Position numbers and translations under genes: made by a program. Below, piece after piece: positions 24,071 to 62,994 of a stretch of 64,000 nucleotides of DNA. The stretch is from positions 3,726,001 through 3,790,000 of the forward strand of contig NC_063152.1 of NCBI RefSeq assembly GCF_020921035.1, given 5' to 3'. This DNA comes from Rhodamnia argentea (taxonomy: Eukaryota > Streptophyta > Magnoliopsida > Myrtales > Myrtaceae). The notes under the pieces were generated by a model. It made no database searches and had not been told where the DNA came from. It was given only the letters and a program-made list of their open reading frames with translations. How positions within the stretch are numbered: position 1 is the stretch's first letter; each line of letters begins with the position of its first letter.

Positions 24071-27000
24071 TCAGTTATCTCCGACAACTGAACCTGGTGG
24101 CTTTGTCACCCACTTCTTAATCATGAGGAGTATGCACTTTCCAGCTAAGTCAATGCACCATGTGGTTATCCCAACAAACAGACATATTCCCCATTCTGTG
24201 CATGTCAATCTTGAATCACCTGCAATGCGATGTGCTGTCTCGAGATATTCGACCTGCAACAACAAAGCCGCAACTACACCCACCCAGAACCATTTACCGC
24301 GTTGGACCCCTCTGAATATGTTCTTCTTCTCGGGCTCTCGGGCATTGAACATGTTGAATACCTGGCATAGAAAAAAGCTGTTGAAAATCGCAGTCTCAAT
24401 TACCTTCTTGTTAAGCCTGAGCATTGTAGGCCCTTTAGATTGTATGGTTGCCAAAAGAGATGCCTGGTAAGCTGATTGTATGAAAATATTCACCCACATG
24501 GCCTTGGTAATGAGTTGTTTATGTGCTCCAGCTGTGAATTTCTTCATGAGCATATCACCAGGTGGCTCCATCAAAAGAGCCAGACCACCTAGAAGAGTCA
24601 AAACTGAGATTGCCCAGTTCAACTGAACCGTCGTTATAGGCGAACTTCCATGGCAGGCAACCGTGATTAACTGTATCAACAACCCGGCAAAGGTCATAGT
24701 CAGCTGAAATTGAATGTACTTTCGCATATTACTGTATATGCATCTTCCACACTCCATTATGGCCCAGATGGATGAGAAATTGCCTTCCGTGATGACGATG
24801 TCGGCGCTCTTTCTTGCAATCTCAGCGCTCCAAGTACCAAATGTGAGTCCCACATCAGCAGCTTTTAGCATGGGAATGTCATTTGTTCTGTTTCCCACCA
24901 CTGCAACTGTGTGTCCTTGATCTTTCAAGCAATTCACCAGAAGAAGCCGATCTGATGGGAGGGAGTTTCCCATCACAGAAATTCTAGCTGCCATGTCCAT
25001 CCTCTGTTCCACAGTGCTATTCCGAAAACTTTCACCTGTGATGACCTGTGCATCTGAATCAGGCGGTATCACTTCAATCTCTGCAGCAATGCTCTGAAGC
25101 ATCGAAACCTTCTCACTCGATACTAATAGTACTTTGATTCCGGCTTCTCTACATTTATTTATCACCTCTCTTGTATCTTCCCTGCTAGTCTTGTTCAGCC
25201 CCAATAGTCCCAGCATCGTTAGATTGCCTTCATCAAACCTGGAGTCATCAACTTGCTTACAAGCAAATGCGATGGATTCAAGACCGTTTGACAGCATTTG
25301 CTCAATGATGTCTCCAAAAATCGTCTTCTCACTTATATCCATGGACCTTGGTATCCCTTCAATGTCATAAAATTGTGAACACATGTCTACTATTAGTGTT
25401 GCAGGTCCCCTGAAGTGCAAGAACCTAGGCCCGTTACCTCCATCCTTTCCAAGCAATGCTGCAACTATGTTCTTGTTGTGGGTTGGCTGTTCAAACTTAA
25501 CGATACTGTGAAGTTGCTCCCAGGTTTCCGTTTTCAGTCCCCATTTCTCTGCGGCCCAAGAAAGGATTGAGTTATCCATTGAGGATTGGCTGTTCTCTGC
25601 TAGTAAAGACGATATGCCAATTCCATCGCAAAGTGCTTCCCAAACATGACTCGGTACCTTGGAATCTTCACTGATAACTTCTTTACCAATCCAGCACCTT
25701 TCCACTTCTTGTGGCGTCAATGGTAGTCCCTCTGCTCTGTCAGTGCAGATAACTGTGACTGATGCCATGGTGACTGTAATGGATGGTTCTTGAGCAAAGG
25801 TCCTGTCACCTAGCATCCTCTTGTTCCAGCAAGTGATGGCAATGGTGATTGCTAATGGTAGTCCTTCAGCTATTCCAACTAGTAGCAAAATGAATGAAGT
25901 CAACATATTCAACATCCCGCTTGGTCTCAGAGCAACTCTTTTTATAGCTTCAATTAATGCCTTCAGAGAAGGTGGCTTCCCTGAGAAGTCCGGCAGGCCT
26001 GAGTTTTGATGTTCCTTCTTGAGATTGAACCGCAAAAACAACACCACGGTGATGATCATTGAGATGACAACACCAATTATTTGTTTCATGGTGCTCAGCT
26101 TGTTGAGTTGCTTCTCTACTGGTGTCCTTTTTAAAGTTTGGGCTCTCCTCGACATAATGCCCAACTCTGTCTCGGCACCGACTGAGGTCACCAGCATTTG
26201 GCCAGCACCATCAATTACTTTGGAACCACAAAACAAGAATGGATTATGATCATCGATGATGGCATCAGCTTTATCACTCACTTCCAAGGATCCAGGGGGT
26301 ACGAGCAAACCATCTGCAGGAACTTGGTCTCCCTTCTCTAATAGCACAATATCTCCCAAGAGGACATCGGAGATGCAAATAGTTTGACGGTTTCCACCTC
26401 TTACAACACGAACTTCCAGTTTCTGATTTTGCCAAGGATGGTTTCTCGACAGCTGACGCGAACTTTCATTCCGATATTCACAAACTGAATGGACCGTCAC
26501 GATCAGAATGACGGCACCTAGTGTAAGAGCGCCTTCATACCAACCCGTTCTCAGTCCTTTCTCTTTGATCCCAAAGGCCGACGACAGAATGGCCAAAATC
26601 AGGAGAAGCAAAATGGTGCAACTATTGCAAGATTTCCCGAGGAAGTGGACGAACCTTCTGTTATGAGCCTCCAACTCGGGTTTAAGGATTGTAGCGTGTC
26701 GGCGAAGGCGAAGGAGGTCCTCCTTATGACCTGGAATTCCGTTGACCATATCACTGTTGAGAGCCTCAGCTATCCCTTGGACACCTCCAAAGGCTTGTAA
26801 GCTAGTCAAATCCTTCTCCATTATCATCCTAGCAACGTTTTCAATTTGGAGCACCAAATCAGTAGCTTCGTGAATGTTGCGCCCATTATCGATGAGCAAC
26901 TCATGTGTGGGCTCTGGTTCCCTGGTATTAGGTACTGTGATCTGCAATAACAGGATATGTTACTTCAGGTGTAGAAATTCCTTCCCCATGTTTTCCTGTA

Positions 27001-28766
27001 AGCTGCTGCACTATTTCACAGCTTAAAAAGCATCACAAGAGAGCAATTCCAGATCTTTATCTGAAATCATTTCAGCGCATTTCGAGCTATACTTCTAACG
27101 GTCGATATCATATGTGCTCATCTGATTAGTACAGAGAATAATAGATAATGTGTGAAGCCCATCAATGCATGAAGTAGACAAATTGCTATCAGCAATACAT
27201 ACATACATACATACATACATACATACATACATACAAGTGTAGATTCGATGGTTGAAACATGATTTGTGGCTTCAGAACACTTCATGGAAATCAGTTGCAG
27301 CAGGCCTAGAGATTATAGTTTCAGCACTAAGGAGTAACAGCGCGAAAGTAGCTTTCAAGTTTCACAATCCACTGATTCATTATGTGGAAAACTGATCTTT
27401 TTGTGACCCAGTACCCATGGAATGCAACTGAGACCAGTTCAATGTTGCTGCTGAGAAGCCTAAGGGACAATTCTACCAATCTCATCTAGCTACCTACCCA
27501 TCGATGCTTCGTGTTCATCGGCACAATTGCTCTAGATGGTGCATGGATATGGGTCGATGACGCTGGAACTTTTATGACTCGATAGGACGTGGAGGAGGAA
27601 CCAGTCTGGGTTCAAAATGGGAATGTCGCCATCACATGAAAGATCGGTCGGAGATTGGTGAACTTCTAAGCAAGACAAAGACACGAAAGATCACTTGTTA
27701 AATGTTTTGGTGGTGAGTTGTTATGAAAGTGCTTTGTGGTCTTGTGATGGAAAAAGCAATGATCTAAGACTACTCACTCCAAGCTGTGTCTCCATCCCGG
27801 TTTTATCTGCTGTCGAAACTACCCGGAGAAACTTGAAGACCAAGGAGACCGAACGCCACCACCTCCTCAGGGTTTTGCCAGCATCGTGGAGAACCGGTTG
27901 CTGCGACTCGACATCTCGATCTTCAACTGCACATGCCTTAATCTCAGTGTCATTTGATGTCGCCATCACATGAAGGATCGGTCGGAGGTTGGTGGACTTC
28001 TAAGCAAGACAAAGACACGAAAGATCACTTGTTAAATGTTTTGGTGGTGAGTTGTTATGAAAGTGCTTTGTGGTCTTGTGATGGAAAAAGCAATGATCTA
28101 AGACTACTCACTCCAAGCTGTGTCTCCATCCCGGTTTTATCTGCTGTCGAAACTACCCGGAGAAACTTGAAGACCAAGGAGACCGAACGCCACCACCTCC
28201 TCAGGGTTTTGCCAGCATCGTGGAGAACCGGTTGCTGCGACTCGACATCTCGATCTTCAACTGCACATGCCTTAATCTCAGTGTCATTTGATGTCGCCAT
28301 CACATGAAGGATCGGTCGGAGATTGGTGAACTTCTAAGCAAGACAAAGACACGAAAGAGCACTTGTTAAATGTTTTGGTGGTGAGTTGTTATGAAAGTGC
28401 TTTGTGGTCTTGTGATGGAAAAAGCAATGATCTGAGACTACTCACTCCAAGCCGTGTCTCCATCCCGGTTTTATCTGCTGTTGAAACGACCCGGAGAAAC
28501 TTGAAGACCAAGGAGACCGAACGCCACCACCTCCTCAGGGTTTTGCCAGCATCGTGGAGAACCGGTTGCTGCGACTCGACATCTCCATCTTCAACTGCAC
28601 ATGCCTTAATCTCAGGGTCATTTGCTGTCGAAATGAGAATTGGATTTGCCTTCAGGAACTGGAAGGCCCATCGCCACCGCCTCCCTGGGGCTCCGCCGGC
28701 ATCGTTGAGGAGGCTCTCCTGCTGAGACTCGATGTCCGAGGCATCTGCCGAGCTCTTCTGCGACAT
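24071..28766 (-). CDS. ACA-like P2B Ca2+-ATPase copy A, predicted catalytically dead, with extra N-terminal exons
   Basis: Related to plant autoinhibited Ca2+-ATPases. Exon 1 is 28446-28766 (start ATG at 28764-28766, donor GTGAGT) and the giant exon is 24071-26941 (acceptor TTATTGCAG). Together they give 1063 aa, close to the family's ~1030-1075. Two in-frame 222-bp exon copies (28112-28333 and 27778-27999) could add 148 aa. Fold landmarks are retained: the N-terminal Arg/Trp module, ALQAFGGVQG-like segment, TM1/TM2 (CTILLLLILAIL, ALTLGAVILIV), the M4 'AEGLPLAI', and the C-terminal TM block. Catalytic marks are lost: no TGES after LEVSDKADA; DKTGT reads DRAEG (Asp at 25739-25741); the TGD-like motif reads SSE; TGDGxND reads GNRTND; M6 lacks the Asn/Asp pair (NWAISVLTLLGG); and PEGL reads AEGL. 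Pumping is therefore unlikely, and a regulatory or structural role is only inference. A CGA-to-TGA change truncates the tail relative to B and C. Confidence 0.8.
27199..27236. repeat. (CATA)n microsatellite in the ATPase A intron
   Basis: Tetranucleotide run in the last intron. The orthologous run in unit B (49507-49550) changes into (CGTA)n, and unit C has almost none at this position. Confidence 0.9.
27625..28625 (-). repeat. 334-bp tandem array containing the ATPase regulatory exon
   Basis: Units start at 27625, 27959 and 28293, and units 1 and 2 are almost identical. Each full unit holds a 112-bp intron-like part with donor GTGAGT and acceptor CTTGCTTAG, plus a 222-bp open segment (27778-27999; 28112-28333) whose frame opens exactly at the acceptor, since an in-frame TAG is the splice site itself. 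The third unit merges into exon 1. The encoded module contains DVESQQPVLHDAG and RRWWRSVSLVFKFLRVV. Phase 0 on both sides means units can be included or skipped without a frameshift. Confidence 0.85.
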
Positions 28767-30200: not shown

Positions 30201-31354
30201 CGCCAGCTTTTTGTCATATAGATATTAGGCGAAACAGATGCACATGACCCCATCTGAATTCATAGGTTATGAACATACAACACAAAGTCATTTTGACCTT
30301 TCCCTATCCCAACTCTTAGTGAAAATTGCATGGGCATTCATTCGAAGTTGATTTACTTGACGGGTGCACATATTTCGTAGAATTTTTTTTCAACGATCCA
30401 ACAAGAGGGTCTTCTCAATATAGGTCCATTAGCTTATTGTATTCGTGCTAATTCGTAATATTATAATCAACCTAGCATGTACACCTGTCATAACGAGCGA
30501 TCTCGCAGTGATTTTCGAAGCAAACTACGTACCATTGACCCCATGATCCATCCTCAACAAAGATGCTGGTGACCACAAAGTCATTTGCACAGGATGATTA
30601 CGTTAAACATCGAACGCGCTTTCAAAGACCGTCCTTCCGATTTATCCCCCCAACATCTCAAGAAATCTAAGGAGTAAAATGAGGCAAAGTTATTCTTCTT
30701 CTAGTCGTCATCGTGAAGTTTCCAAGTTGCTTCTTTCCCTTTCTTTTTTATTTGCTGAAAGAGAGGAACTCAAGTAGCAAATCTGCTAACTGATTTTGTC
30801 TTTTTCACTAACAAAGATATCTAAAGTGACCATTAGCGTACAAAAATTAGCGTTAATTCCGTAAGGGATTCCCAAAGAATGGAAAAGGGAAAATTAACCA
30901 TTCACCTAAACATTAAAGCCATAAATTGCTGTCGATAATGAAAAAAAAAATATTAACTGATTATTTTCAGCGATATGAGTGACTATTTTGAGAAAAAAAA
31001 ATATTTTTTAAAATTTTTCATTTTTCACAAAACAAACGCTTCCTAATTAAAGAAATGGTTAATATCATGAAAAAATCAAAACCGGTACACTTGTGACAAA
31101 AAAAAAATGTGGCATTTTTAATTAATTTTTTAAATTCTAATTGGTAATTTTTTTAAAAATTAGATTTTTAAAAAAGAAAAATTAACAGAAAATTTTCAAA
31201 ATAAAAAGTTTATTTAAAATATTAAGTTAAAAAATGAACAAGAAAACTAAAAAAAAAACAAAAAACAAAGCCATTTTGACCTTTCTCTAACCCAACTCTT
31301 AGTGAAAATTGCACGGGCATTCATTTGAAATTGATTTACTTCAGGGAGCACATA
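30201..31354. other. Spacer with start of second-layer duplications
   Basis: Contains the first copy of the 'gatccaacaagagggt' word (about 30397) and of the 'aggaactcaagtagcaaatc' word (about 30765), both recurring further right. A truncated foldback end (ggttaatatcatgaaaaaat) occurs at about 31058. No gene recognised. Confidence 0.5.
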
Positions 31355-33018
31355 TTTCGTAGAATTTTCTTTCACCGATCCAACAAGAGGGTTTGCTCAA
31401 TATAGATCGATGAGCTTATTGTATTCGTGCTAATTCGTAATATTATAATCAATCTAGCACGTACACGCATCATAACAAGCGATCTCGCAGTGATTTTCCA
31501 AGCAACTAACGCCATTGACCCCATGATCCGTTCTCAAAAAAGATGCTGGTGACCACAAAGTCGTTTGCACGGGACGATATGCTTTGCCTTTTGCAGAATT
31601 GGAGGTTCATTCAACGCGAGGAAGCAGAGACCAGACAGGACAACGACTAAAAAGACCGATCAAGTTAAAAGCTTCGTATTTGCCCTCCACGAACCAAGAC
31701 AAGTCAGACATTGGGAATCCGGAACCAGTTAAGTGTTCGGACCGGACTTTCTTTGGTTGGTTGCTCCGATAAAAGAATGAATCTCGCTCTGATAAATTTG
31801 TGTCCAAAAACTGTGTTTCTCCACGGATTCTGTCTCAAGTCTGTATTTTGTTGGGAAAGTGGGAGATCGAACAATAAAATAGATTAAGTACAAAAATAAA
31901 TTGAACACCATGTTTATGCAATTCGGTCATGGAGATCTACGTTCATGAGGAGGCAGCAAATTTAATCCAATGAGGTGAAAGATTTTGCCCGAATTTGTTC
32001 ATTGGACTCACGGGTACGTGTCTAGCTTTTGGTTATCTTGGTCATGTTCCTTGATTCCTCATCAATATCACTGAATGAATTGTCAAAGCTTGAAAGTTGG
32101 AATTAAATTCTTTAAATTGTCTAGATGGACACAATTGTTAAAATGTGAAAAAAGTTTATAACTCAATTGAAAAAATCGAAAGATTCAGAACTGAATTGAC
32201 GAAAGTGTAATAGGTTTAGGGACATTTTTGGACAATTCTCCTTATTCTTTGTAAAGCTTGATAGTTTGATTCTTCAACTCAACCTCGTTGGGACACCATC
32301 TAACCGTATTTGGGACCAAACGTCGCTGGGGTTGCGCGGTGTGGCTTGTGATGGGAAGTAGTGAAGCGGAACTACATCGGAGACGACGGTGGTGGGATAG
32401 CCGATAGTGATGGTTCAAAGAAAAGAGGAAGAAGAAGAAAATAAAAAGTGGGTAGAATACTCCATGTGTCGCGTTCAAATATACAAAAAGATCATTTATT
32501 TAATGTAATTCTAAAGGTTCGGAACTAAATTGAACAAGAAAGTTTTCATGAATTACATTAAATATCGAACGCGCTTTCAAAGACCGTCCTTCCGATTTAT
32601 CCCCCCAAACATTTCATGAAATCTAAGGAGTAAAATGAGGCAAAGTCAAAGTCATCATTCTTCTAGCCGTCATCGTGAAGTTTCCAAGTTGTTTCTTTCC
32701 CTTTCTTTTTTATTTGCTAAAAGACAGGAACTCAAATGGCAAGTCCACCAACTGATTTTGTCTTTTTCACTAACAAAGATATCCAAAGTGACCATTAGCG
32801 TACAAAAATTATCAATCATACCGAAAGGGATTCCCAAGGCATGGAAAAGGGAAAATTCATCATTCACCTAAACATTAAAGCCATAAATTATTGTAGATAA
32901 CAAAAAAAAAAAATTATTAGTTGATTATTTTCAGCGATATGAGTGACTATTTTTAGAAAAATATTTTTTAAAATTTTTCATTTTTTCACAAAACAAACGC
33001 ACCCTAATTTAAAAAAAA

Positions 33019-33428
33019 GGTTAATATCACGAAAAATCTCAAAATGTTACACTTGTAACAAATTTTCCTCAAATTATATTTTTGACTAAAAAAATCCCAA
33101 ACGGGTACACATTTAACAAATGTATTCAAACTGATATATTTGTGATAAATTTACCTTCCGTTAGTTTCTCGTTAAATTTTACTATTAAATTATGGAGTTG
33201 GATGACACGTGATTGTCGGCGGATGTACTAGTTTGAGATTTTTACCATTTGTTTGTGACAGATGTATCGGTTTGGGATTTTTCGTGATATTAACCCCGAT
33301 TTAACGTAAATTTGTCATATGTGTCCCAATTTGGAGTTTTTGATGGTCAAAAAATATATTTTCTGATAAATTTGTCACAGTATACCAGTTTGGAGATTTT
33401 CGTGATCCAAAAAATAGTTTGAGATAAG
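33019..33428. mobile_element. Foldback element family, copy 1 (truncated right)
   Basis: The left end, ggttaatatcacgaaaaatc, is mirrored by ggatttttcgtgatattaacc near 33276-33296, with 'tttgtcacag' and 'tttgtgataaatttacc' words in between. The right part stops at the junction with the next tandem spacer copy. Other copies are at about 35849-36326 and 53769-54193. Confidence 0.6.
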
Positions 33429-35848
33429 TTTGTCATAGAATTTTCTTTCACCGATCCAACAAGAGGGTCTTCTCAATATAGATCGATGAGCTTATTGTAT
33501 TCGTGCTAATTCGTAATATTATAATCAATCTAGCTCGTACACGCATCAGAACGAGCAATCTCGCAGTGATTTTCCAAGCAACTAACGCCATTGACCCCAT
33601 GATCCGTCCTCAAAAAAGATGCTGGTGACCACAAAGTCGTTTGCACGGGACGATATGCTTTGCCTTTTGCAGAATTGGAGGTTCATTCAACGCGAGGAAG
33701 CAGAGACCAGACAGGACAACGACTAAAAAGGCCGATCAAGTCAAAAGCGTCGTATTTGCCCTCCACGAACCAAGACAAGTCAGACATTCGGAATCGGGAA
33801 CCAGTTAAGTGTTCGGACCGGACTTTCTTTGGTTGGTTGCTCCGATAAAAGAATGAATCTCGCTCTGATAAATTTGTGTCCAAAAACTGTGTTTCTCCAC
33901 GGATTCTGTCTCAAGTCTGTATTTTGTTGGGAAAGTAGGAGATCGAACAATAAAATAGATTAAGTACAAAAATAAATTGAACACCAGGTTTATGCAATTC
34001 AGTCACGGAGATCTACGTTCATGAGGAGGCAGCAAATTTAATCCGGTGAGGTGAAAGATTTTGCCCGAAGTTGTTCATTGGACTCACGAGTACGTGTCTA
34101 GCTTTTGGTTATTTTGGTCATGTTCCTTGATTCCTCATCAATATCGCAAAATTTACGGCACTAAATGAATTGTCAAAGCTTGAAAGTTGGAATTAAATTC
34201 TTTAAATTGTCCATATTCACACAATTATTAAAATGTGAAAAAAGTTTAGGACTCAATTGAAAAAATCGAAAGATTCAGGATTGAATTGGCGAAAGTGTAA
34301 TAGGTTTAGTGACTTTTTTGTACAATTCTCCCGATTTTTTTTAAAGCTTGATAGTTTGATTCTTCAACTCAACCTCGTTGGGACACCCTCTAACCATATT
34401 TGGGACCAAACGCCGCTGCGGTTGCGTAGTGTGGTTTGTGATAGGTAGTGAAGCATAACTACATCGGACTGACAACGGTGGTGGGATAGCCGGTAATGAT
34501 AGTTTAGAGAAAGGAGGAACGAGAAGAAAATAAAAAGTGGGCAGAATACCCGATATATGGCTTTCAAATATACGGAAAGATCATTTATTTATTGCAATTT
34601 TAAAAGTTCGGAACTAAATTGAACAAAAAAGGTTTCATGGATTACATTAAATATCGAACACGGTTTCAAAGACCGTCTTTCCGATTTATCCCCCACGTCT
34701 CATGAAATCTAAGGAGTAAAATTAGGCGAACTCAAAGTCGCTCTTCTTCTAGTCGTCATCGTGAAGTTTCCAAGTTGCTTCTTTCCCTTTCTTTTTTATT
34801 TGCTGAAAGAGCGGAACTCAAATGGCAAAACTGCCAATTGATTTTGTCTTTTTCACTAGCAAAGATATCTAAAGTGACAGTAAGCGTACAAAAATATAAA
34901 TAATACCGAAAGGGATTCCCAAAGCATGGAGAACAGAAAATTCATCAATCACGTAAACATTAAAGCCATAAATTATTGTCGATAACGAAAAAAACAATTA
35001 GATTGATTATTTTCAACGATACGAGTGATCTTTTCTAGAAATTTTTTTTTTCAAATCACTCATTTTCCACAAAACAAACACACCCTAATTGAAGAAATGG
35101 TTAATACCTTGCTCGAGGCAGGCGACGCCAAGCCTCACTTGGCGAGCCATCGGCTACGGCCGTAGCCGGCAACCGGCCTAAGGAGAAGAAGGAATACTAA
35201 AAAAAAAAAAAGATGAAAAAAGGAAAAAAAACAATAAAGAAAGTAATTTTAAAATAAATTTTATCCAAAAAATAAAATTTTCAATTTTTGAAAAAATAAA
35301 TAAAAACGAAAAGAAGGTAAAAAAATAATTAAAAAAATAGTTGAAAGAGAGGAACAATGAAAAATGTGAAAAATATTTTCCTCTTCTCAAAATGAGGAAA
35401 TCATTTTCTTTAGTTTTAGAAGGTTTTTGGTTGACCGTAAAATATTTTCCGTTGCCGCTCATTTTCCGCCCCCCAAACATTGGAAATTGAGGAAAATTTT
35501 TTCCTGAAAAATATTTTTCGTGAAACAAACAGAGCCTTATTTGCTAAAAGAGAGGAACTCAAATGGCAAATCTGCCAATTGATTTTGTCTTTTTCACTAA
35601 CAAAGACATCTAAAGTGACCATTAGCGTACAAAAATTATTAATAATACCGAAAGGGATTCCCAAAGAATGGAAAAGGGAAAATTCATCTTTCACCTAAAC
35701 ATTAAAGCCATAAATTGTTGTCAATAACGAAAAAAAAATTATTAACTGATTATTTTTAGCGAAATGAGTGACTATTTTCAGAAAAAAAATATATTTTTTA
35801 AATTTTTTTTATTTTTAACAAAACAAACGCCCCCTAATTAAAGAAAAG

Positions 35849-36326
35849 ATTATTAGCACGAAAAACTCCAAACCGATACGATCGTGACAAATTTTTTTGA
35901 ATTATTTTTAAACCACAAAAAATCCTAGACGGCTACACCCGTAACAAATGTATTCCAAACTGATATATTTGTGACAAATTTAGTCTCCGTTAATTTCTCG
36001 TTAAATTTTACTGTCAAATTGTTGAATTGGATGACACATGACTGTTGATGAGTGTACTAGTTTGAGATTTTGACCTTCTGTTTGTAACGGATGTATCAGT
36101 TTGAGATTTTTCGTGATATTAACCCAATTTAACGAAAACTAAAGAAGGATAAATTTGTCATATGTATCCTAGTTTGGAGTTTTTAGTGGTCAAAAAATAT
36201 AGTTTGGGCTAAATTTGTCACGGTATACCAGTTTGGGATTTTTGGTAGTCTAAAAAATAGTTTAGAGTAAATTTGTCACGGATGTAACAATTTGAGATTT
36301 TTTTTTTTTTTTTGTATTAACCTTGA
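35849..36326. mobile_element. Foldback element family, copy 2
   Basis: Starts gattattagcacgaaaaact and ends in gagattttttttttttttttgtattaacc. The inner inverted words match copy 1. The poly-T near the right end is copy-specific. Confidence 0.55.
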
Positions 36327-39484: not shown

Positions 39485-40367
39485 TTGTTAAATGTTTTGG
39501 TGGTGAGTTGTTATGAAAGTGCTTTGTGGTCTTGTGATGGAAAAAGCAATGATCTGAGACTACTCACTCCAAGCTGTGTCTCCATCCGGGTTTTATCTGC
39601 TGTTGAAACGACCCGGAGAAACTTGAAGACCAAGGAGACCGAACGCCACCACCTCCTCAGGGTTTTGCCAGCATCGTGGAGAACCGGTTGCTGCGACTCG
39701 ACATCTCCATCTTCAACTGCACATGCCTTAATCTCAGGGTCATTTGCTGTCGAAATGAGAATTGGATTTGCCTTCAGGAACTGGAAGGCCTATCGCCACC
39801 GCCTCCCCAGGGCTCCGCCGGCATCGCTGAGGAGGCTCTCCTGCTGAGACTCGATGTCCGAGGCATCCGCCGAGCTCTTCTGCGACATCTTTTTGGAGGG
39901 AGCTTCACGTTGATCAACTGGCAAGGAGAGAACTAGTCCACTTACCAGGTAACACAGCACATACTGTCTCTCCAGTGAACTTCTAGCGAAGATAGGGAGG
40001 AAAACTTTACCTGTTACGTGAACCCAGAGGAAGTAGATGCTTGAAGAACCCTAGCAGAAGAAGAACGACAATGGAACTCGAGTTGAGCCCCTTCTTATAG
40101 AGGCTGAAAAGCGCGTCGAACCTGGAGGGAAATGCCTGACACATTTCGCTGCATACGTGCAAGTTTGAAAGTGCAGTACACGATGGAGCTTGGCAGAAAT
40201 ACACGTCGACGTGTATATAATTTGAAAGTCTCCAGTGTTACAGGTTAAATAGAAGACCATGCTTTTGTTTCGGAGAAAATTTCATGATAAATACAAACAT
40301 ATTTTTCGAGAAATCTTTTTCTAGCTCATTCATTTACCTAACTTTAAGTTTTTTTTTTTTTTTTTTG

Positions 40368-40408
<41 letters not shown>

Positions 40409-41275
40409 TTTACGGTAAATGATTTTCTTTTTACCAATCATTTTCATCGAACCAAGCACATAAAAGTTCAGAAAATCAACTCCGGAAAAATTCTTTCGCT
40501 CAAACAAATCGTATGGCATTTCATTTTATGGTGCCTTACGCAATGAGCACATTTTGGCACCATTTTTATGGGGAGAGTCGACCCTAGTGTGTCCACGCTC
40601 CCCGCGGTGATTTTTCTAGCACACGCGTGACATTTTAACCCCATGCCCAACTTCACGAAAATGGATCATATAATGGGAACGCAAGAGCCATTTGGTCCGA
40701 TCTCGCGGGATTGGAGGCTTATTCGATGCACGTGGACGGGTCGATTTGCCCGCGTTTGCGGAAATCTAGAAGAGTTGGACGTCGGAGGCAGGTGGAGGAC
40801 GAGTAGCGTCCCCGTCGTCCTTCTCAGTTATTGAATGGAGTAGGGCATGGTTTGTTGCTATGGTATCACGCTCGTCGCTTCATGGCAGGAGTCCAAAGAT
40901 ATTTCTGCATGACTTCCATGGGAAAATGGTGAGGGGTTTTGGAGGAGAATGAGGGGGAATCATGGACTGTACTAGCATAAGACTTGTACATTCGCCGATC
41001 GGGTGTCGCCGTCCTACGTGGTACGACCGCCACGTCTTTTATTGCCAGTGAAAATTAGCTGGAAGGTCTATCGCTGCGTTTGGTTTGCTTTTGCTTTTAG
41101 GAAAAGCCCTTAAGGAAAATGCACAAGATTTTAAAGGAGTTTTTCAAAGTGCAATCTGTGTTTGTTAAATTATAATCTAAAGTCCTTGCAAAGTAACTTT
41201 GAGAAATATTCCATTTGCAAAGAAATTTTTCTACTTTTTTGTTCCAAAAAATAAAATCAAACCCTTCGCCAGATT
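39485..41275. repeat. Orphan 1.8-kb copy of the ATPase A 5' region
   Basis: Closely matches 28363-30200 (offset +11,122 at the left), including N-terminal exon, leader, TATA box, microsatellite and upstream spacer. There is no ATPase body attached. It is bounded left by the truncated copia element and right by unrelated sequence starting around cagatttgatgaagggc. Confidence 0.9.
39568..39888 (-). pseudogene. Orphan N-terminal ATPase exon, nonsense-mutated
   Basis: Counterpart of exon 1 of copy A (ATG at 39886-39888). In the first Arg/Trp module the codon after RRWR is TAG instead of TGG (near 39800), closing the frame after about 30 codons. With no downstream catalytic exon within 6 kb on the minus strand, it is a dead duplicate. 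Confidence 0.75.
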
Positions 41276-46298: not shown

Positions 46299-49200
46299 CT
46301 AATCCACCTTATCCAGTTTTCCCATCACTTGCGGAAGCTCGAGATTGCAAGTGGGTTCTGGGACAGCTGAGGATAGGTTTCGGTTATCTCCGACAACTGA
46401 ACCTGCTGGCTTTGTCACCCACTTTTTAATCATGAGGAGTATGCACTTTCCGGCTAAGTCAATGAACCATGAGATTATCCCAACAAGCAGACACATTCCC
46501 CATTCTGTGTATGTTAATTTTGAATCACCTGCAATGGCATGTGCTGTCTCAAGAAATGTGGCCTGTAACAACAAAGCGGTAACTGTACCCACCCAGAACC
46601 ATTTACTTCGACGAACCCCTCTGAAGATGTTGATCTGTTCAGGCTCTCGGGCATTGAATTTGTTGAATACCTGGCATAGGAAGAAGCTGTTGAACATCAC
46701 CGTCTTGGTTACCTCCTTGCTAAGCCCGAGCATTGTAGGCCCTTTAGACTGTATGGTTGCCAAAAGAGACGTCTGGTAAACCGTTTGTATGATAATATTC
46801 ACCCACATGGCCTTGGTAATGAGTTGTTTTTCTGCTCCTGGTGCAAATTTCTTCATAAGCATATCACCAGGTGGCTCCATCAGAAGCGCCAAACCACCTA
46901 GAGGGGTCAAAACTGAGATCGCCCAGTGGAACTGAATCGTCGTTATAGGCGAACTTCCATAAGAGGCATTTGTGATTAAGGGTACCAACCCCGCGGCTAA
47001 GGTCATAGGTAGCTGAAATTGAATGAATTTTCTGATGTTACTGTATATGCATCTTCCGCACTTCACTATGGCCGAGATGGATGTGAGATTGCTTGCCTTG
47101 ATGACAATGTCGGCGCTCTTTCTTGCTATGTAAGTGCTTCCAGTTTCAAACGTGAGTCCCACATCGGCAGCTTTTAGCATGGGAATGTCATTTGTTCTGT
47201 TTCCGACCACTGCAACTGTGTGTCCTTGATCTTTCAAACAACTCAGCAGAAGGAGCTGATCGGAGGGGAGGGAATTCCCCATCACAAAAATACTATCTGC
47301 CTTATCCATCCTATCTTTATCAGAAATACTCCGAAATACTTCGCCCTCGATGGCCCATGCATCTGCATCAGGCCGTATTACTCCAAACGACGTAGCAATT
47401 TCCTTAAGTGTCGAAACCTCCTCACTCGATACTATCAGTACTTTAATTCCGGCTTCTCTAAAATTTTCTATCACTGTTCTTGTATCCTGCCTGCTAGTCT
47501 TCTTCAGCCCCAGCAGTCCCAGCATCACTAGATTGCCTTCATCAAACTTGGAGTCATCAACTTTCTTACAGGCAAATGCGACGGATTCAAGACCTTTTGA
47601 GTGCATTTGCTCAATAATGCCTTTAATTTCCTTCCGTTTACTTGTATTCATGAACCTTGTATTCCCTTCAATGTCATAAAATTGTGAACAACTGTCTAAT
47701 ATTGTTGTTGCAGGTCCCTTGCAGTGCAAGAACCTAGGCCCGTTACCTCCATCCTTTCCAATCAATGCTGTAACTATGTTCTCGTTCTCGGTTGGCTGTT
47801 TGAACTCAATGCTACTGTCACGTTTCTTCCAGATTTCCATTTTCAATCCCCATTTCTCTGCAGCCCAAGAAAGGATTGAGTTATCCACTGAGGTTCGGCT
47901 GTTCTCTTGTATTAGAGAAGATATGCCAATCCCATCCCAAAATGCTTCCAGAACATGGATGGATATTTTGGAATCTTCACTGATATCTTTTCCACCAATA
48001 CAGCACCTTTCAACTTCTTGTGGGATCAATGTAAGTCCCCCCATTTTGTCGGTGCAGATTATGGTGACTGATGCCATGGTGGCAGTTGTGGATGGTTCTT
48101 GAGCAAACATGATTGCGCACTTCTTGTTCCAGCAAGTGATGGCAATAGTGATTGCTAATGGTAGTCCTTCGGCTATTCCAACGAGTAGCAAAGTAAGTGA
48201 AGAAGCCAGCATAGTTAACATCCCTTGTGGTCTCAGGGCAACTCTCTTTATAGCTTCATATAATCCCTTCAGAGTATGTGACTTCCCTGAGAAGTCCGGC
48301 AGGCCTGTGTTATCATATTCCTTCTTGACCATGAACCGCAAGAACGACACAACAATGATGATTATTGAGATGACAATTCCGATTATTTGTGTCGAAGTGC
48401 TCAGCTTTCTGAGTTGCTCCTCTACTGGTGGCATTTTTTGATGGTTGAGCTCTGCTCAACATATTTCCCAACTTTGTCTCGGCACCAACTGAGGTCACCA
48501 GCATTTTTCCAGTACCATCAGTTACTTTGGAACCATAAAACAAGAATGGATTATGATCATTGATGATGGGATCAGCTTTGTCATTCACTTCCAAGGATTC
48601 AGTGGGTATGAGCAAACCATCAGCAGGAACTTGGTCTCCCTTCTCTAATTGCACAATGTCTCCGAAGAGGACATCGGAGATGCAAATAGTTTGAGGGCAT
48701 CCCCCTCTGAAAACACGAAATTTCAGTTCCTGATTTTGCCAAGGCTGGTTTCTCGACAGCTGACGCGAACTTTCATTCCTATATTCACAAACTGAATGGA
48801 CCATCACGATCAGAATGACGGCACCTAGTGTAAGAGCGCCTTCATACCAACCCGTTCTCAGTCCTTTCTCTTTGATCCCAAAGGCCAACGACAGAATGGC
48901 CAAAATCAGGAGAAGCAAAATGGTGCAACTATTGCAAGATTTCCTGAGGAAGTGGATGAACCTTCTGTTATGAGCCTCCGACTCGGGTTTAAGGATTGCA
49001 GCGTGTCGGCAAAGGAGGTCCTCCTTATGACCTGGAATTCCGTTGACCATATCACTGTTGAGAGCCTCAGCTATCCCTTGGACACCTCCAAAGGCTTGCA
49101 AGCTAGTCAAATCCTTCTCCATTATCATCCTAGCAACGTTTTCAATTTGGAGCATCAAATCAGTAGCTTCGTGATTGTTGCGCCCGTTATTGATGAGCAA

Positions 49201-50874
49201 CTCATGTGTGGGCTCTGGTTCCCTGGTATTAGGTAATTCTGGGATCTGCAATAACAGGATATGTTACTTCAGGTGTAGAAATTCCTTCCCCATGTTTTCC
49301 TGTAAGCTGCTGCACTATTTCACAGCTTAAAAAGCATCACAAGAGAGCAATTCCAGATCTTTATCTGAAATCATTTCAGCGCATTTCGAGCTATACTTCT
49401 AACGGTCGATATCATATGTGCTCATCTGGTTAGTACAGAGAATAATAGATAATGTGTGAAGCCCATCAATGCATGAAGTAGACAAATTGCTATCAGCAAT
49501 ATCAGCAATACATACATACATACATACATACGTACGTACGTACGTACGTAGAATGACACGTCTTAGTTCTGGTGTAGCAAAATAAGAAAAAGAAAGGATG
49601 TTCAGTCTTTGTAATCAGATGCATTGTGGATTGCCAATAAGTATCCTAGATTTTGTACGATAGTACTAGGTGACCTGGGGTTATTTCACTTATTCAGAAT
49701 TCAAGCATTGTCCCTCTAATAGAAAGGTGTGATCGTCTTAGTTACCCTGTAGCTGTAATGCTTTAAAAACTAGTACAACCTGAAGGATCACTACACTTAT
49801 CAAATTGATTTTCTGTTTGGACTTTGGCAAACCTTGTTATAGTTCAATTTAAGTTGAAGTTTCAAATCTGAAGTGCTTCCAGTATGCTCCTTTTTCAAAA
49901 GCGGTAAACTTCGTGAAGCATAAATTCGATGGTCGGAACTTGATTTGTGGCTTCAAACATGTGACATAAATAAATCAGTTAGACATTACATTGTTGGTAC
50001 TAATGAGTAAGACACTGAAAGTAGCTTTCAAGTTCTCAATCAACTGACTCATTGACTGAGAGACACTTTGCAATGCTTTTTTTAACCCAGTAGCCATGGA
50101 ATGCAACTGAGACTAGTTGATCTTCTGAATAGAAAATGCTTCCACCATATTGCCACTGAGAAGCCTAAGAGACAATTCTACTAATTTCTGTTTGTTCAAT
50201 GCATGCTGTTCTTTGGCACATCCTTGCTCTAGATGATGAAGGCAGGTATTCTTGTGAACGAATATGGGTTATTCACACTTGAACTTTTATGACTCAATAG
50301 GACATGGAGGAAGAACTATTCCTATTTCAAATGGTTACGTCGCCATCACAGGAAAGGAAAGATTATTTGGAGACTGACGAACTTACACGCAAGACGAAAG
50401 ACTCATTAAGATTTTTTGTTGGTGGGTTCTTATGAAAGTGTCGTTTGGAAGAAAAAGAGATGATTTTGAGACTGCTCACTTCAGGTTGTTGATCCATCAC
50501 AGGGTCATATGCAGTCGAAACGCGCACCCGGAGAGCCTTTAGGACCAAGTAGACCAGCCGCCACCGTCTCCTTGGGGTTTTGCCATTATTGATGAGGGCG
50601 ATCGCTTGCTGAGACTCGATGCCCTGGTCATTAACAAAGCTCTTCTGTGACATCTCTGGATGAAGTTTCACGTTGATCAACTGGAAAAAAGAAAACTACT
50701 CACTTGTGCCGCTCTCACAGTGCCATTTGCTATCGAAACGAGCATCCAGAGAGCCTCTAGGACCGAGGAGACCCAATGCCACCGTCTCCTCGGGGTTTTG
50801 CCTGTACTGATGGGGAGGTTCTCTTGCTGAGACTCGATGTCCAAGTAGTCATCCGCGAAGCTCTTCTGCGACAT
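46299..50874 (-). pseudogene. ACA-like P2B ATPase copy B, frameshifted
   Basis: Giant exon 46299-49245 (acceptor TTATTGCAG) is split by one extra base in a T run (six T at 48434-48439, where copy C has five at 60891-60895). The frame therefore shifts between the actuator-domain end and M3. Two candidate first exons precede it: 50480-50653 (donor GAA|GTGAGC) and 50704-50874 (donor CAA|GTGAGT). Each begins MSQKSF and carries an RRRW module. Only 23-50 bp separate them, so they can only be alternatives. Catalytic marks are degenerate: DKTGT reads DKMGG (Asp at 48048-48050), TGES is absent, TGDG reads VGNR, and M6 reads HWAISVLTPLGG. The C terminus is the longest of the three (ending MGKLDKVD). 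Unless the shift is bypassed or is a sequencing error, no full-length protein is made. Confidence 0.75.
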
Positions 50875-58778: not shown

Positions 58779-61700
58779 TTACATCACTTGCAGAAGCTCG
58801 AGATTGCTAGCGGGTTCTGGGACAGCTGAGGATAGGTTTCGGTTATCTCCGACAACTGAACCTGGTGGCTTTGTCACCCACTTCTTAATCATGAGGAGTA
58901 TGCACTTTCCGGCCAAGTCAATGCACCATGAGATTATCCCAACGAGCAGACATATTCCCCATTCTGTGTATGTCAATCTTGAATCACCTGCAATGCGATG
59001 TGCTGTCTCGAGATATTCGACCTGCAACAACAAAGCTGCAACTACACCCACCCAGAACCATTTACCGCGATGGACCCCTCCAAAGATGTTCTTCTTCTCG
59101 GGCTCTCGGGCATTGAACATGTTGAATACCTGGCATAGAAAAAAGCTGTTGAATATCACGGTCTCAATTACCTTCTTTTTAAGCCTGAGCATTGTAGGCC
59201 CTTGAGATTGTATGGTTGCCAAAAGAGATGCCTGGTAAGCTGATTGTATGAAAATATTCACCCACATGGCCTTGGTAATGAGTTGTTTATGTGCTCCAGC
59301 TGTGAATTTCTTCATGAGCATATCACCAGGTGGCTCCATCAAAAGAGCCAGACCACCTAGAAGAGTCAAAACTGAGATTGCCCAGTTCAACTGAACCGTC
59401 GTTATAGGCGAACTTCCATGACAGGCAACCGTGATTAACGGTATCAACAACCCGGCAAAGGTCATAGTCAGCTGAAATTGAATGTACTTTCGCATATTAC
59501 TGTATATGCATCTTCCACACTCCATTATGGCCCAGATGGATGAGAAATTACCTTCCGTGATGACGATGTCGGCGCTCTTTCTTGCAATCTCAGCGCTCCA
59601 AGTAGCAAATGTGAGTCCCACATCAGCAGCTTTTAGCATGGGAATGTCCTTTGTTCTGTTTCCCACCACCGCAACTGTGTGTCCTTGATCTTTCAAGCAC
59701 TTCACCAGAAGAACCCCATCGGATGGGAGGGAGTCCTCCACCACAGAAATTCTATCTGCCATGTCCTTCCTCTCTTTCACAGAGCTATTCCGAAATCTTT
59801 CACCTGTGATGACCCGTGCATCTGAATCAGGCGGTATCACTTCAATCTCTGTAGCAATGCTCTGAAGCATTGAAACCTTCTCACTCGATACTAATAGTAC
59901 TTTGATTCCGGCTTCTGTACATTTATTTATCGCCTCTCTTGTATCTTCCCTGCTAGTCTTGTTCAGCGCCAATAGTCCCAGCATCGTTATATCGTCTTTA
60001 TCAACTTGCTGACAAGCAAATGCGATGGATTTGAAACCGTTTGAGTGCATTTTCCCAATGCTGTCTCCAAAAATCGCCTTTTCCCTTTCATCCATGGGCA
60101 TTGGTATCCCTTCAATGTCATAAAATCGTGTACACATTTCTAATATTATTTTTGCAGGTCCGTTAAAGTGCAAGAACCTAGGCCCGTTACCTCCATCCTT
60201 TCCAACCAATGCTGCAACTATGTTCTCGTTGTGGGTTGGCTGTTCGACCTTAGCAATACTGTGAATTTGCTTCCAGGTTTCCATTTTCAGTCCCCATTTC
60301 TCTACGGCCCAAGAAAGGATTGAGTTATCCATTGAGGTTTGGCTGTTCTCTGCTAGTAAAGACGATGCGCCAATTCCATCGCAAAGTGCTTCCCTAACAT
60401 AAGTCGGTACCTTGGAATCTTCACTGATAACTTCTTTACCAATCCAGCACGTTTCCACTTCTTGTGGCGTCAATGGTAGTCCTCCTGTTTTGTCAGTGCA
60501 GATAACTGTGACTGATGCCATGGTGACCGTAATGGAAGGTTCTTGAGCAAAGGTCTTGTCACCTAGCATCCTCTTGTTCCAGCAAGTGATGGCAATGGTG
60601 ATTGTTAATGATAGTCCTTCAGCTATCCCAACTAGTAGCAAAGTGAATGAAGTCAGCATATTTAACATCCCGCATGGTCTTAGAGCAACTCTCATTATAG
60701 CTTCATGTAATTGCTTCAGAGAATGTGGCTTCCCTGCGAAGTCTGGCAGGCCCGAGTTTTGATGTTCCTTCTTGAGATTGAACCGCAAAAACAGCACCAC
60801 ACTGATGATTATCAAGATGACAACACTGATTATTTGCTTCATTGTGCTCAGCTTGTTAAGTTGCTTCTCTACTGGTGTCCTTTTTGACGTTTGAGCTCTC
60901 CTCGACATATTTCCCAACTTTGTCTCGGCACCGACTGAGGTCACCAGCATTTTGCCAGCACCATCAATTACTTTGGAACCATAAAACAAGAATGGATTCT
61001 GATCATTGATGATGGCATCAGCTTTGTCATTCACTTCCAAGGATCTAGTGTCAATGGGTATGAGCAAACCATCTGCAGGAACTGGGTCTTCCTTCTCTAA
61101 TAGCACAACGTCTCCCGAGATAACATCACAGATGCCAATAGGTTGAGGGCGTCCCCCTCTTAAAACATGAACTTCCAGTTTCTGGTTTTGCCAAGGCTGG
61201 TTTCTCGACAGCAGACGTGAACTTTCATTCCGAAATTCACAAACTGAATGGACCATCACGATCAGAATGACAGCGCCTAGTGTAAGGGCGCCTTCATACC
61301 AACCCGTTCTCAGTCCTTTCTCCTTGATCCCAAAGGCCAACGACAGAATGGCCAAAATCAGGAGGAGCAAAATGGTGCTACTATTGTAAGATTTCCTGAG
61401 GAAGTAAATGAACCTTCTGTTATGAGCCTCCGACTCATGTTTAAGGATTGCAGCGCGTCGGTGACGGAGGTCCTCCTCATGACCTGGAATTCCATTGGCT
61501 ATATCACTGTTGAGAGCCTTAGCTACCCCTTGTACACCTCCAAATGCTTGTAAGCCATTCAAATCCTTTTCCATTACCATCCTAACAATGTATTCAGTTT
61601 TGAGCACCATATCAGTAGCTTCATGATTGTTGCACCCGATACTGATGACCAACTCATGTGTCCGCTCTGGTTCCGTGGTATCCGGTAATTCCGTTCTCTG

Positions 61701-62994
61701 CAGCAACAGAATATGTTACTTCTTTTCATTTTTCTTTTTTCGCTCAAAAAATATATGTTACTTCAGGTGTAGGAATTTCTTCCCAGTGCTTTCCTGTAAG
61801 CTGCTGTACTATTTCACAGCTTAAAAAGCATGACAAGACAGCAATTCCAGATCTTTATCTGCAATCATTTCAGCGCATCGAGCTATACTTCTAGTGATCG
61901 TTATCATATGTGCTCATCTGATTTTTTTTTTTTTTGGTAAAGGTAAGTGCTCATCTGATTAGTACAGAGAATAACAGATAATGTGTGAAGCCCATCAATG
62001 CATGAAGTAGACAAGTGCTATCAGCAACATATGCATAAATATATAGACAAGTGTACATTCCACCGTTGAGACTTGATTTGTGGCTTCAGAACACTTCATG
62101 GAAATCAGTTGCAGCAGACCTAGAGATTATAGTTTCGGCACTAATGAGGAAGAGCGTGAAAGTAGCTTTCAAGTTTTCAATCAACTGATTCATTATGTGA
62201 AAAAAAAAACATCTTTTTGTGACCCAGTACCCATGGAATGCAACTGAGACCAGCTCATCTTCTGAATAGGAAGTGCTTCCGCCATGTTGCTGCTGAGAAG
62301 CCTAAGGGACAATTCTATCACTTATGTCGCTTAAAAAAATGAATAAATGAACTTTTTTTCATCACTTGCAAAAATAGTTAGGCATAAATTGCTATCGAAC
62401 TAATTTTTCTAAATGATATAACAATCATTTTTCGGAAAATGTTTTTCAAATTGCTTATTTTCCGTGAAATAAACACACCCTAAGGGACAATTCTACCAAT
62501 CTCATCTAGCTACCTACCCATCTATGCGTCGTGTTCATCGGCACAATTGCTCAAGATGGTAAAGAGGGTGATCATGTGAATGGATATGGGTTGATTACGC
62601 TGGAAGTTATATGACTAGATAGGACGTGGAGGAAGTACCAGTCTGGGTTCGAAATGGGAATGTCACCATCACATGAAAGATCTGTCGGAGATTGGTGAAC
62701 TTCTAAGCAAGACAAAGATAGGAAAGATCCCTTGTTAAATGTTTTGGTGGTGAGTTGTTATGAAAGTGCTTTGTGGTATTGTGATGGAAAAGGCAATGAT
62801 CTGAGACTACTTACTCCAAGCTGTTTCTCCATCACGGTTTCATCTGCTGTCGAAGAGACCCGGAGCGCCAGCTGCGACTCGACATCTTGATCTTCAACCA
62901 CACATGTCTTAATATCAGTGTTATTTGCATCGACGAGGATGCTCTCCTGCAGAGACTCGATATCCGGGGAATCCGCCGAGCTCTTCTGCGACAT
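58779..62994 (-). CDS. ACA-like P2B Ca2+-ATPase copy C, predicted catalytically dead, no calmodulin-type module
   Basis: Exon 1 is 62815-62994 (ATG at 62992-62994, consensus donor GGA|GTAAGT) and exon 2 is 58779-61697 (acceptor GCTGCAG). Both junctions are phase 0, giving 1032 aa, the usual ACA size. It has the same architecture as copy A: cytosolic N terminus, TM1/TM2, actuator-like loop, M4, P- and N-domain-like body and a C-terminal membrane block. It is the least eroded at the phosphorylation site (DKTGG, Asp at 60492-60494), but Thr of DKTGT is lost, TGES is missing, TGDG reads VGNR, the KGA lysine reads NGP, M4 reads AEGLSL and M6 reads NWAISVLTLLGG. Exon 1 keeps MSQKSSADSPDIES but lacks the RRW helix through an in-frame loss. 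An in-frame TAA just after LQVM shortens the tail relative to B. A membrane pseudo-pump, or a recently inactivated gene. Confidence 0.8.
62318..62478. mobile_element. 161-bp insertion with 17-bp direct flanks
   Basis: cctaagggacaattcta occurs at 62301-62317 and again at 62479-62495. Units A (about 27460) and B (about 50170) have it once with no insert. Long target duplications are typical of retroposition. The insert has A/T tracts but no clear pol III boxes or poly-A tail. A short SINE-like or processed insertion is suggested. Confidence 0.6.

Follow-up and report, generated by a model that had tools for sequence, protein, structure and literature searches.

Introduction

Among the ACA pumps of plants, ACA12 and ACA13 are intronless, and ACA12 has been reported not to be stimulated by calmodulin, though able to bind it (PMC5920303, partial text). 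The binding of two calmodulins to one ACA (PMC6255812), splice changes in the animal PMCA pumps (PMC8835232) and alternative splicing by way of tandem exon duplication, an idea cited in PMC2674458, are already in print, as the partial texts of these sources indicate. In a literature search of partial coverage, none of the titles listed dealt with splicing in plant ACAs, with arrays of exons or a variable set of calmodulin modules in them, with degenerate P-type ATPases of the kind described below or with ACA expansions in eucalypts or Myrtaceae. The duplication of half an exon together with intron sequence in a degenerate pump was likewise not among the titles that this partial coverage yielded.

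Here we describe such an arrangement in a window of 64,000 nucleotides from Rhodamnia argentea (NC_063152.1, positions 3,726,001 to 3,790,000). A sequence-only reading of this window had proposed that an array of in-phase exons adjusts the number of calmodulin-binding-like modules in a Ca2+ pump. The explanation that we favour, and hold to be probable, is that a 334-bp segment of a degenerate ACA12/13-like gene was duplicated in tandem in two steps, which left a probably neutral array that is unlikely to tune a pump.

Results

A 334-bp repeat at the exon 1/intron 1 boundary of gene A

In the window, TRF and a second repeat search both found a 334-bp unit in the region of exon 1 and intron 1 of one gene, here called gene A. 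The unit is present in three tandem copies (27623-28624) that are 97-99% alike, with pairwise differences of 9, 8 and 3 of 334. The features of gene A are as follows.

28446-28766, minus strand: exon 1, 321 nt or 107 codons with two RRW modules, open from the ATG to a GTGAGT donor, phase 0
28291-28624, minus strand: array unit 1, made of the exon-1 tail (28446-28624, 179 nt) and the first 155 nt of intron 1
27957-28290, minus strand: array unit 2, with 9 differences from unit 1 and 3 from unit 3
27623-27956, minus strand: array unit 3, with 3/334 differences from unit 2 and 4/334 from the second unit of paralogue A'
28112-28333, minus strand: candidate cassette exon 1, 222 nt, phase 0, predicted from sequence
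27778-27999, minus strand: candidate cassette exon 2, 222 nt, phase 0, predicted from sequence
27666-27674, minus strand: third copy of the CTTGCTTAG acceptor, which if used would give KFTNLRPIFHVMATFPF and then a stop
26942-28445, minus strand: intron 1 with the array skipped, GTGAGT ... TTGCAG, 1504 nt
24074-26941, minus strand: body exon, 956 open codons, an ACA-like P-type ATPase without catalytic motifs

Much of the geometry in the sequence-only reading is borne out. Exon 1 (28766-28446, minus strand) does hold two related modules, and coordinates and frames agree with two 222-bp copies in phase 0. Both stretches have CTTGCTTAG in front and GTGAGT behind and lie at 334-bp spacing, with 112 nt from each donor to the next acceptor. 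The body begins in phase 0 at 26941, preceded by TTGCAG. As had been stated, inclusion of the units would leave the frame of the pump intact: phase 0 is kept throughout and both copies in gene A are open; one further open, in-phase copy is found in A'.

Other parts of that description need amendment. The 222-bp copies exist, but the array has three units, the first of which is the tail of exon 1 itself. Two 222-nt stretches were found, but only 179 nt of each copy exon 1 (its tail), the remaining 43 nt being former intron 1. The frame had also been described as open exactly between the splice sites; its 5' limit is in fact the TAG of the acceptor, an in-frame stop, and at the other end it overruns the donor by 54 nt, to 28058 and 27724 respectively. 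A third acceptor (27666), absent from that description, leads to a stop after 17 codons, so that a productive mRNA may use the CTTGCTTAG acceptor at most twice and must pass over it after that. Sixteen of the 20 nucleotides upstream of this old intronic AG are pyrimidines, against 11 of 20 for the body acceptor.

The expectation by chance was obtained by enumerating 52,461 duplicated units, each beginning in exon 1 and extending 100-300 nt into intron 1. An open phase-0 exon arises from some AG in 73% of them, and from a pyrimidine-rich YAG in 35%. The 334-bp repeat is itself beyond chance; the openness and phase of its units are unremarkable and expected by chance. An open frame between splice sites was discarded as a sign of function on account of the acceptor TAG, the continuation of the frame beyond the donor and this chance expectation of 0.35-0.73.

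Paralogues and the origin of the array

The window contains further copies of the gene or of parts of it.

46302-49257, minus strand: paralogue B body, with one 1-nt frameshift and no other stop
50480-50653, minus strand: paralogue B exon 1, with one RRW module; a second exon-1-like copy begins at 50874
58782-61697, minus strand: paralogue C body, open, with the same motif losses as A
62815-62994, minus strand: paralogue C exon 1, RRW motif gone; the single-copy intron behind it carries CTTGCTTAG
39485-41065, minus strand: locus D, limited to exon 1, which has an in-frame stop, and the region upstream of it

Comparison within the window showed that intron 1 of both C and B is single-copy across the stretch of the unit. 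At the place of the acceptor, C carries CTTGCTTAG as intron sequence and B has GCGTGTAAG. Use of this AG in C would give 31 codons and then a stop, and the last AG of A' gives 17 codons before a stop, as in A. Because the AG leads to a stop in C and at the ends of the A and A' arrays, a single-copy gene has to pass over it to make a productive mRNA. At the junction of the units, the letters CGACA are common to exon and intron, which suggests microhomology.

The species' own genome (346.66 Mb, 74 contigs) was searched with the unit, which matched at least 13 places; among the matches listed, all are on contig C3, between 3.75 and 3.88 Mb. Of the 13 places listed, 5 are full-length matches, three in A and two in A', a paralogue 72 kb from A. 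A' therefore has two units, that is, exon 1 and one 222-nt copy, open, in phase and with splice-like sites as in A. The two paralogues differ in unit number (three in A, two in A').

Differences per 334 are 5 between A1 and A'1, 4 between A3 and A'2, 3 between A2 and A3, 9 between A1 and A2 and 9 between A'1 and A'2; the bodies of A and A' are 3.6% apart. Because of these unit distances, two units were most likely present before A and A' separated, and the third was most likely gained later in A. At three sites locus D has the base of A1 where A2, A3 and C have another, on which ground the first duplication seems to be older than D too. In the protein tree the A' body was grouped with C, at 57% support, and both carry DSLPSDGVLL; this may reflect gene conversion between copies, which could also blur the order of the unit duplications.

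Exon-1 duplication is, by sequence comparison, recurrent in the cluster, as B and B' (L014) also have it. In gene B, two exon-1-like copies with one RRW module each lie in tandem at a distance of 221 nt (ATG at 50874 and 50653), and L019 has two copies arranged as in B. Upstream of the B' body (L014:5511-6124) lie two tandem stretches about 69% like the 334-bp unit, the product of an older duplication that took in the end of exon 1 and the beginning of the intron. Locus D (39485-41065), L012 and L013 each consist of a copy of exon 1 and its upstream region; all three share one in-frame stop, and their match to A ends at one common point, A 28363. A fragment of copia-type gag/pol adjoins D in the window (37.5-39.4 kb). 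Upstream of gene A, at 30272-36278, there are nested direct repeats with spacings of about 0.98, 1.96, 2.08 and 2.83 kb.

The body of gene A has lost the motifs of a pump

The coding body of gene A lies in one exon, with the N-terminus in a separate exon. Its residues 39-937 align with ACA8 (8qmp) with an E value of 3e-153, and Pfam pump domains are matched. The characteristic motifs are nevertheless altered at every covered site in A, A', B, C, C', L014, L016 and L019. TGES is missing from A, B, C and those of the fetched paralogues in which the site is covered. DKTGTLT is replaced by DRAEGLP in A, DKAGGLP in A', DKMGGLT in B and L019, DKTGGLP in C and C' and DKTGGLA in L014 and L016. The TGD of the P domain has become SSE or SSD in the cluster, GDGTND has become GNRTND, GNRTKD, GNKTNH or GNSTNE, and the Asn/Asp of TM6 (NLIMD in ACA8) has given way to AISVLT or VIS(V/I)LT.

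L036 and L037 (1028 and 1061 aa), two genes of this genome that lack introns, served as controls; among the 51 matches listed they rank first and third of those outside contig C3. Both retain these motifs, TGES and an intact DKTGTLT included, as well as one N-terminal RRW segment. The residues lost in A are needed for ATP-driven transport by P-type ATPases. With its catalytic and Ca2+-site motifs gone, the A protein would thus be unable to pump, and gene A very probably does not encode a working pump.

From the A' body (L011:1513-3924; 804 open codons) a further 176 residues are missing without a shift of frame; the gap lies between the phosphorylation site and TGD, in the nucleotide-binding region. 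The motif-less ACA-like bodies form a tandem cluster, covering 24074-61697 of the window as well as L011, L014, L015, L016 and L019. Long open frames are found in six cluster bodies (A, A', C, C', L014 and L019), and L016 has one stop. The B body (46302-49257) is broken by a single 1-nt difference, and L019, with the same motif letters, is open over 987 codons. Another large cluster, at 3.54-3.70 Mb of contig C1, is made up of ACA-like matches that are more distant and in several cases carry stops.

The RRW modules are kin to the N-terminal region of plant ACAs

Module 1 of A, RRWRWAFQFLKANPILISTAN, aligns with RRRWRLAFTVIYFMRALKSLSK of L036, within the single N-terminal RRW segment of the intact intronless L036 and L037. 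Kinship of the gene A module with the N-terminal RRW region of plant ACAs is supported by this alignment. The module had been likened to the autoinhibitor of ACA8, ACA9 and ACA10; its relation to the RRW region of plant ACAs stands, but neither exon 1 nor the 222-nt exon of A has a match to PF12515 (CaATP_NAI). An ACA8 N-terminus matches this profile at 4.1e-20, and the intact L036 and L037 and an ACA12 N-terminus are missed by it. The miss says only that the module is, by sequence, not of the ACA8 type, and PF12515 was set aside as a test of calmodulin binding.

The module segments are basic and hydrophobic, and putatively calmodulin-binding-like by sequence. Hydrophobic moment was also rejected as a discriminator: among four peptides of the window it was unusual only for module 2 (reached by 4.7% of shuffles), it separates nothing clearly, and even the ACA8 segment has a low value. 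Searched against the PDB, exon 1 gave a single match, a B3 domain at E 0.67.

Exon 1 carries two RRW modules in A and A', one in B and none in C and C'. D, D2 and D3 have two each, the first of them interrupted by an in-frame stop common to all three loci. RRW is lost in C and C', whose frames are still 972 and 973 codons long, and members without RRW but with long frames make the family unlike one in which module number sets pump activity.

Open frames and near-neutral residues

Several results are those expected of plain pseudogene debris, in which the array would be one more rearrangement. The synonymous share is 20/72 on the A branch, 87/285 on B and 37/127 on C, for a neutral expectation of about 0.28. 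The NG86 dN/dS of A and C is 0.73, against a neutral null of 0.775 +/- 0.126, and their bodies diverge almost as fast as intron 1 (7.6% vs 8.5%, or 69/814). B has its frameshift, L016 its stop, and D, D2, D3, L020 and L021 are partial.

The state of the frames argues against this explanation. No stop interrupts the bodies of A, B and C, where about 17.7 are expected; for the A-C pair alone 7.4 are expected, and just 0.1% of simulations were free of stops. Body indels are all multiples of three, bar one in B, whereas 7 of 10 A-C intron indels are not. A codon model gave an omega of 0.7-0.8 on five open bodies, with omega 1 worse by 4.4-4.7 log units, and of about 0.8 on six, with omega 1 worse by 3.2. 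These five or six bodies were picked for openness, leaving out B, L016 (one stop), D, D2, D3 and the L020 and L021 fragments, and a stop count on the five (about 22.5 expected) is biased for the same reason. We read the whole as weak constraint on residues and a stronger one on the frame. Plain debris is accordingly possible, but we give it a minor share of the probability. This is an oddity of the cluster, and it raises the question of what preserves long open frames in several degenerate pumps whose residues drift almost neutrally.

Discussion

A probable two-step duplication and its possible products

In the explanation that we favour, the duplicated segment would have run from the last 179 nt of exon 1 across the donor into intron 1. 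As productive splicing in the single-copy gene must ignore the old AG, the exon 1-to-body splice is taken as ancestral, and the splice from the donor at 28445 to the acceptor at 26942 would still give the main productive mRNA. The old intronic AG, which now has a donor behind it, may admit one or two units as in-frame cassettes; their inclusion would lengthen the N-terminus of A by 74 or 148 residues. If the array has any effect, it would concern the N-terminal tail of a membrane protein that does not pump, and at most the binding of calmodulin or a partner. The array is probably neutral. Since the catalytic residues are gone, a role in tuning pump activity, and with it exon-number tuning of autoinhibition, is unlikely. 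The three stop-free bodies indicate that the protein may do something and that its N-terminus may matter.

Skipping of the array is not the only outcome to be weighed, since the pyrimidine tract of the old AG (16/20 vs 11/20) means that inclusion is not to be dismissed. With this better tract, and an intron of 112 nt as compared with 1504 nt, inclusion could be the main event. The units might then be regularly spliced in, constitutively or alternatively, to give N-termini with three or four RRW modules and little consequence for fitness. The GTGAGT donors, the shared phase 0 and the open frames of both A copies and of the A' copy are all compatible with this, and exon definition would give the first acceptors, each followed by a donor, an advantage over the last, which is followed by none. 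For a productive mRNA, however, the same acceptor has to be passed over in C and where each of the two arrays ends, and we regard regular inclusion as unlikely. Were the units spliced in, this would be a young example of a cassette exon put together from part of an intron and half of an exon. One genome holds side by side the single copy of C, the two units of A' and the three of A.

A further proposal would give the cluster a function: the dead pumps would be kept as membrane-bound binders of calmodulin or a partner, with a ladder of RRW modules (0 in C, 1 in B, 2-3 in A', 2-4 in A) set by exon duplication and splicing, without pump activity. We consider this very improbable.

The proposal that exon copy number tunes the calmodulin-controlled autoinhibition of an active Ca2+ pump, for which the RRW kinship of the modules, the activation of ACA8 by two calmodulin molecules on its regulatory domain (PMC6255812, partial text) and the unequal unit numbers of A and A' could be cited, deserves almost no credence: it was rejected for the loss of pump motifs (TGES, DKTGT, TGD, GDGTND and the TM6 Asn/Asp) in A and, wherever the site is covered, in the other cluster copies, C and C' lack RRW altogether, ACA12 is reported as deregulated in the partial text of PMC5920303, and exon 1 has no PF12515 match, a weak argument given that intact kin are missed too.

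Comparison with known systems

Gene A resembles the ACA12/13 type (cluster 3) in its one-exon body and N-terminal RRW segment, and intact intronless kin of the same genome align with it; the ACA12/13 label, based on the intronless body and the N-terminus, is to be read in that sense. Unlike that type, A lacks the catalytic and Ca2+-site motifs and has an intron between N-terminus and body, and the cluster has 0-2 RRW modules in exon 1, with up to two more in the array.

The regulatory domain of ACA8, with two calmodulin sites according to the partial text of PMC6255812, resembles A in having more than one calmodulin-binding-like N-terminal segment. In A, by contrast, PF12515 is not matched, there would be no working pump to inhibit, and the modules are repeats of one RRW segment.

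At splice site C of the animal PMCA, alternative exons alter the calmodulin-binding region of a P-type pump (PMC8835232, partial text). There the change is C-terminal, known at the RNA level and in active pumps, whereas A has predicted splice sites in a degenerate pump. The idea of splicing through tandem exon duplication reportedly goes back to Kondrashov and Koonin (2001). Gene A is alike in having duplicated, in-phase copies; it differs in that part of an exon was copied together with intron, so that the new 5' end of each copy is of intronic origin.
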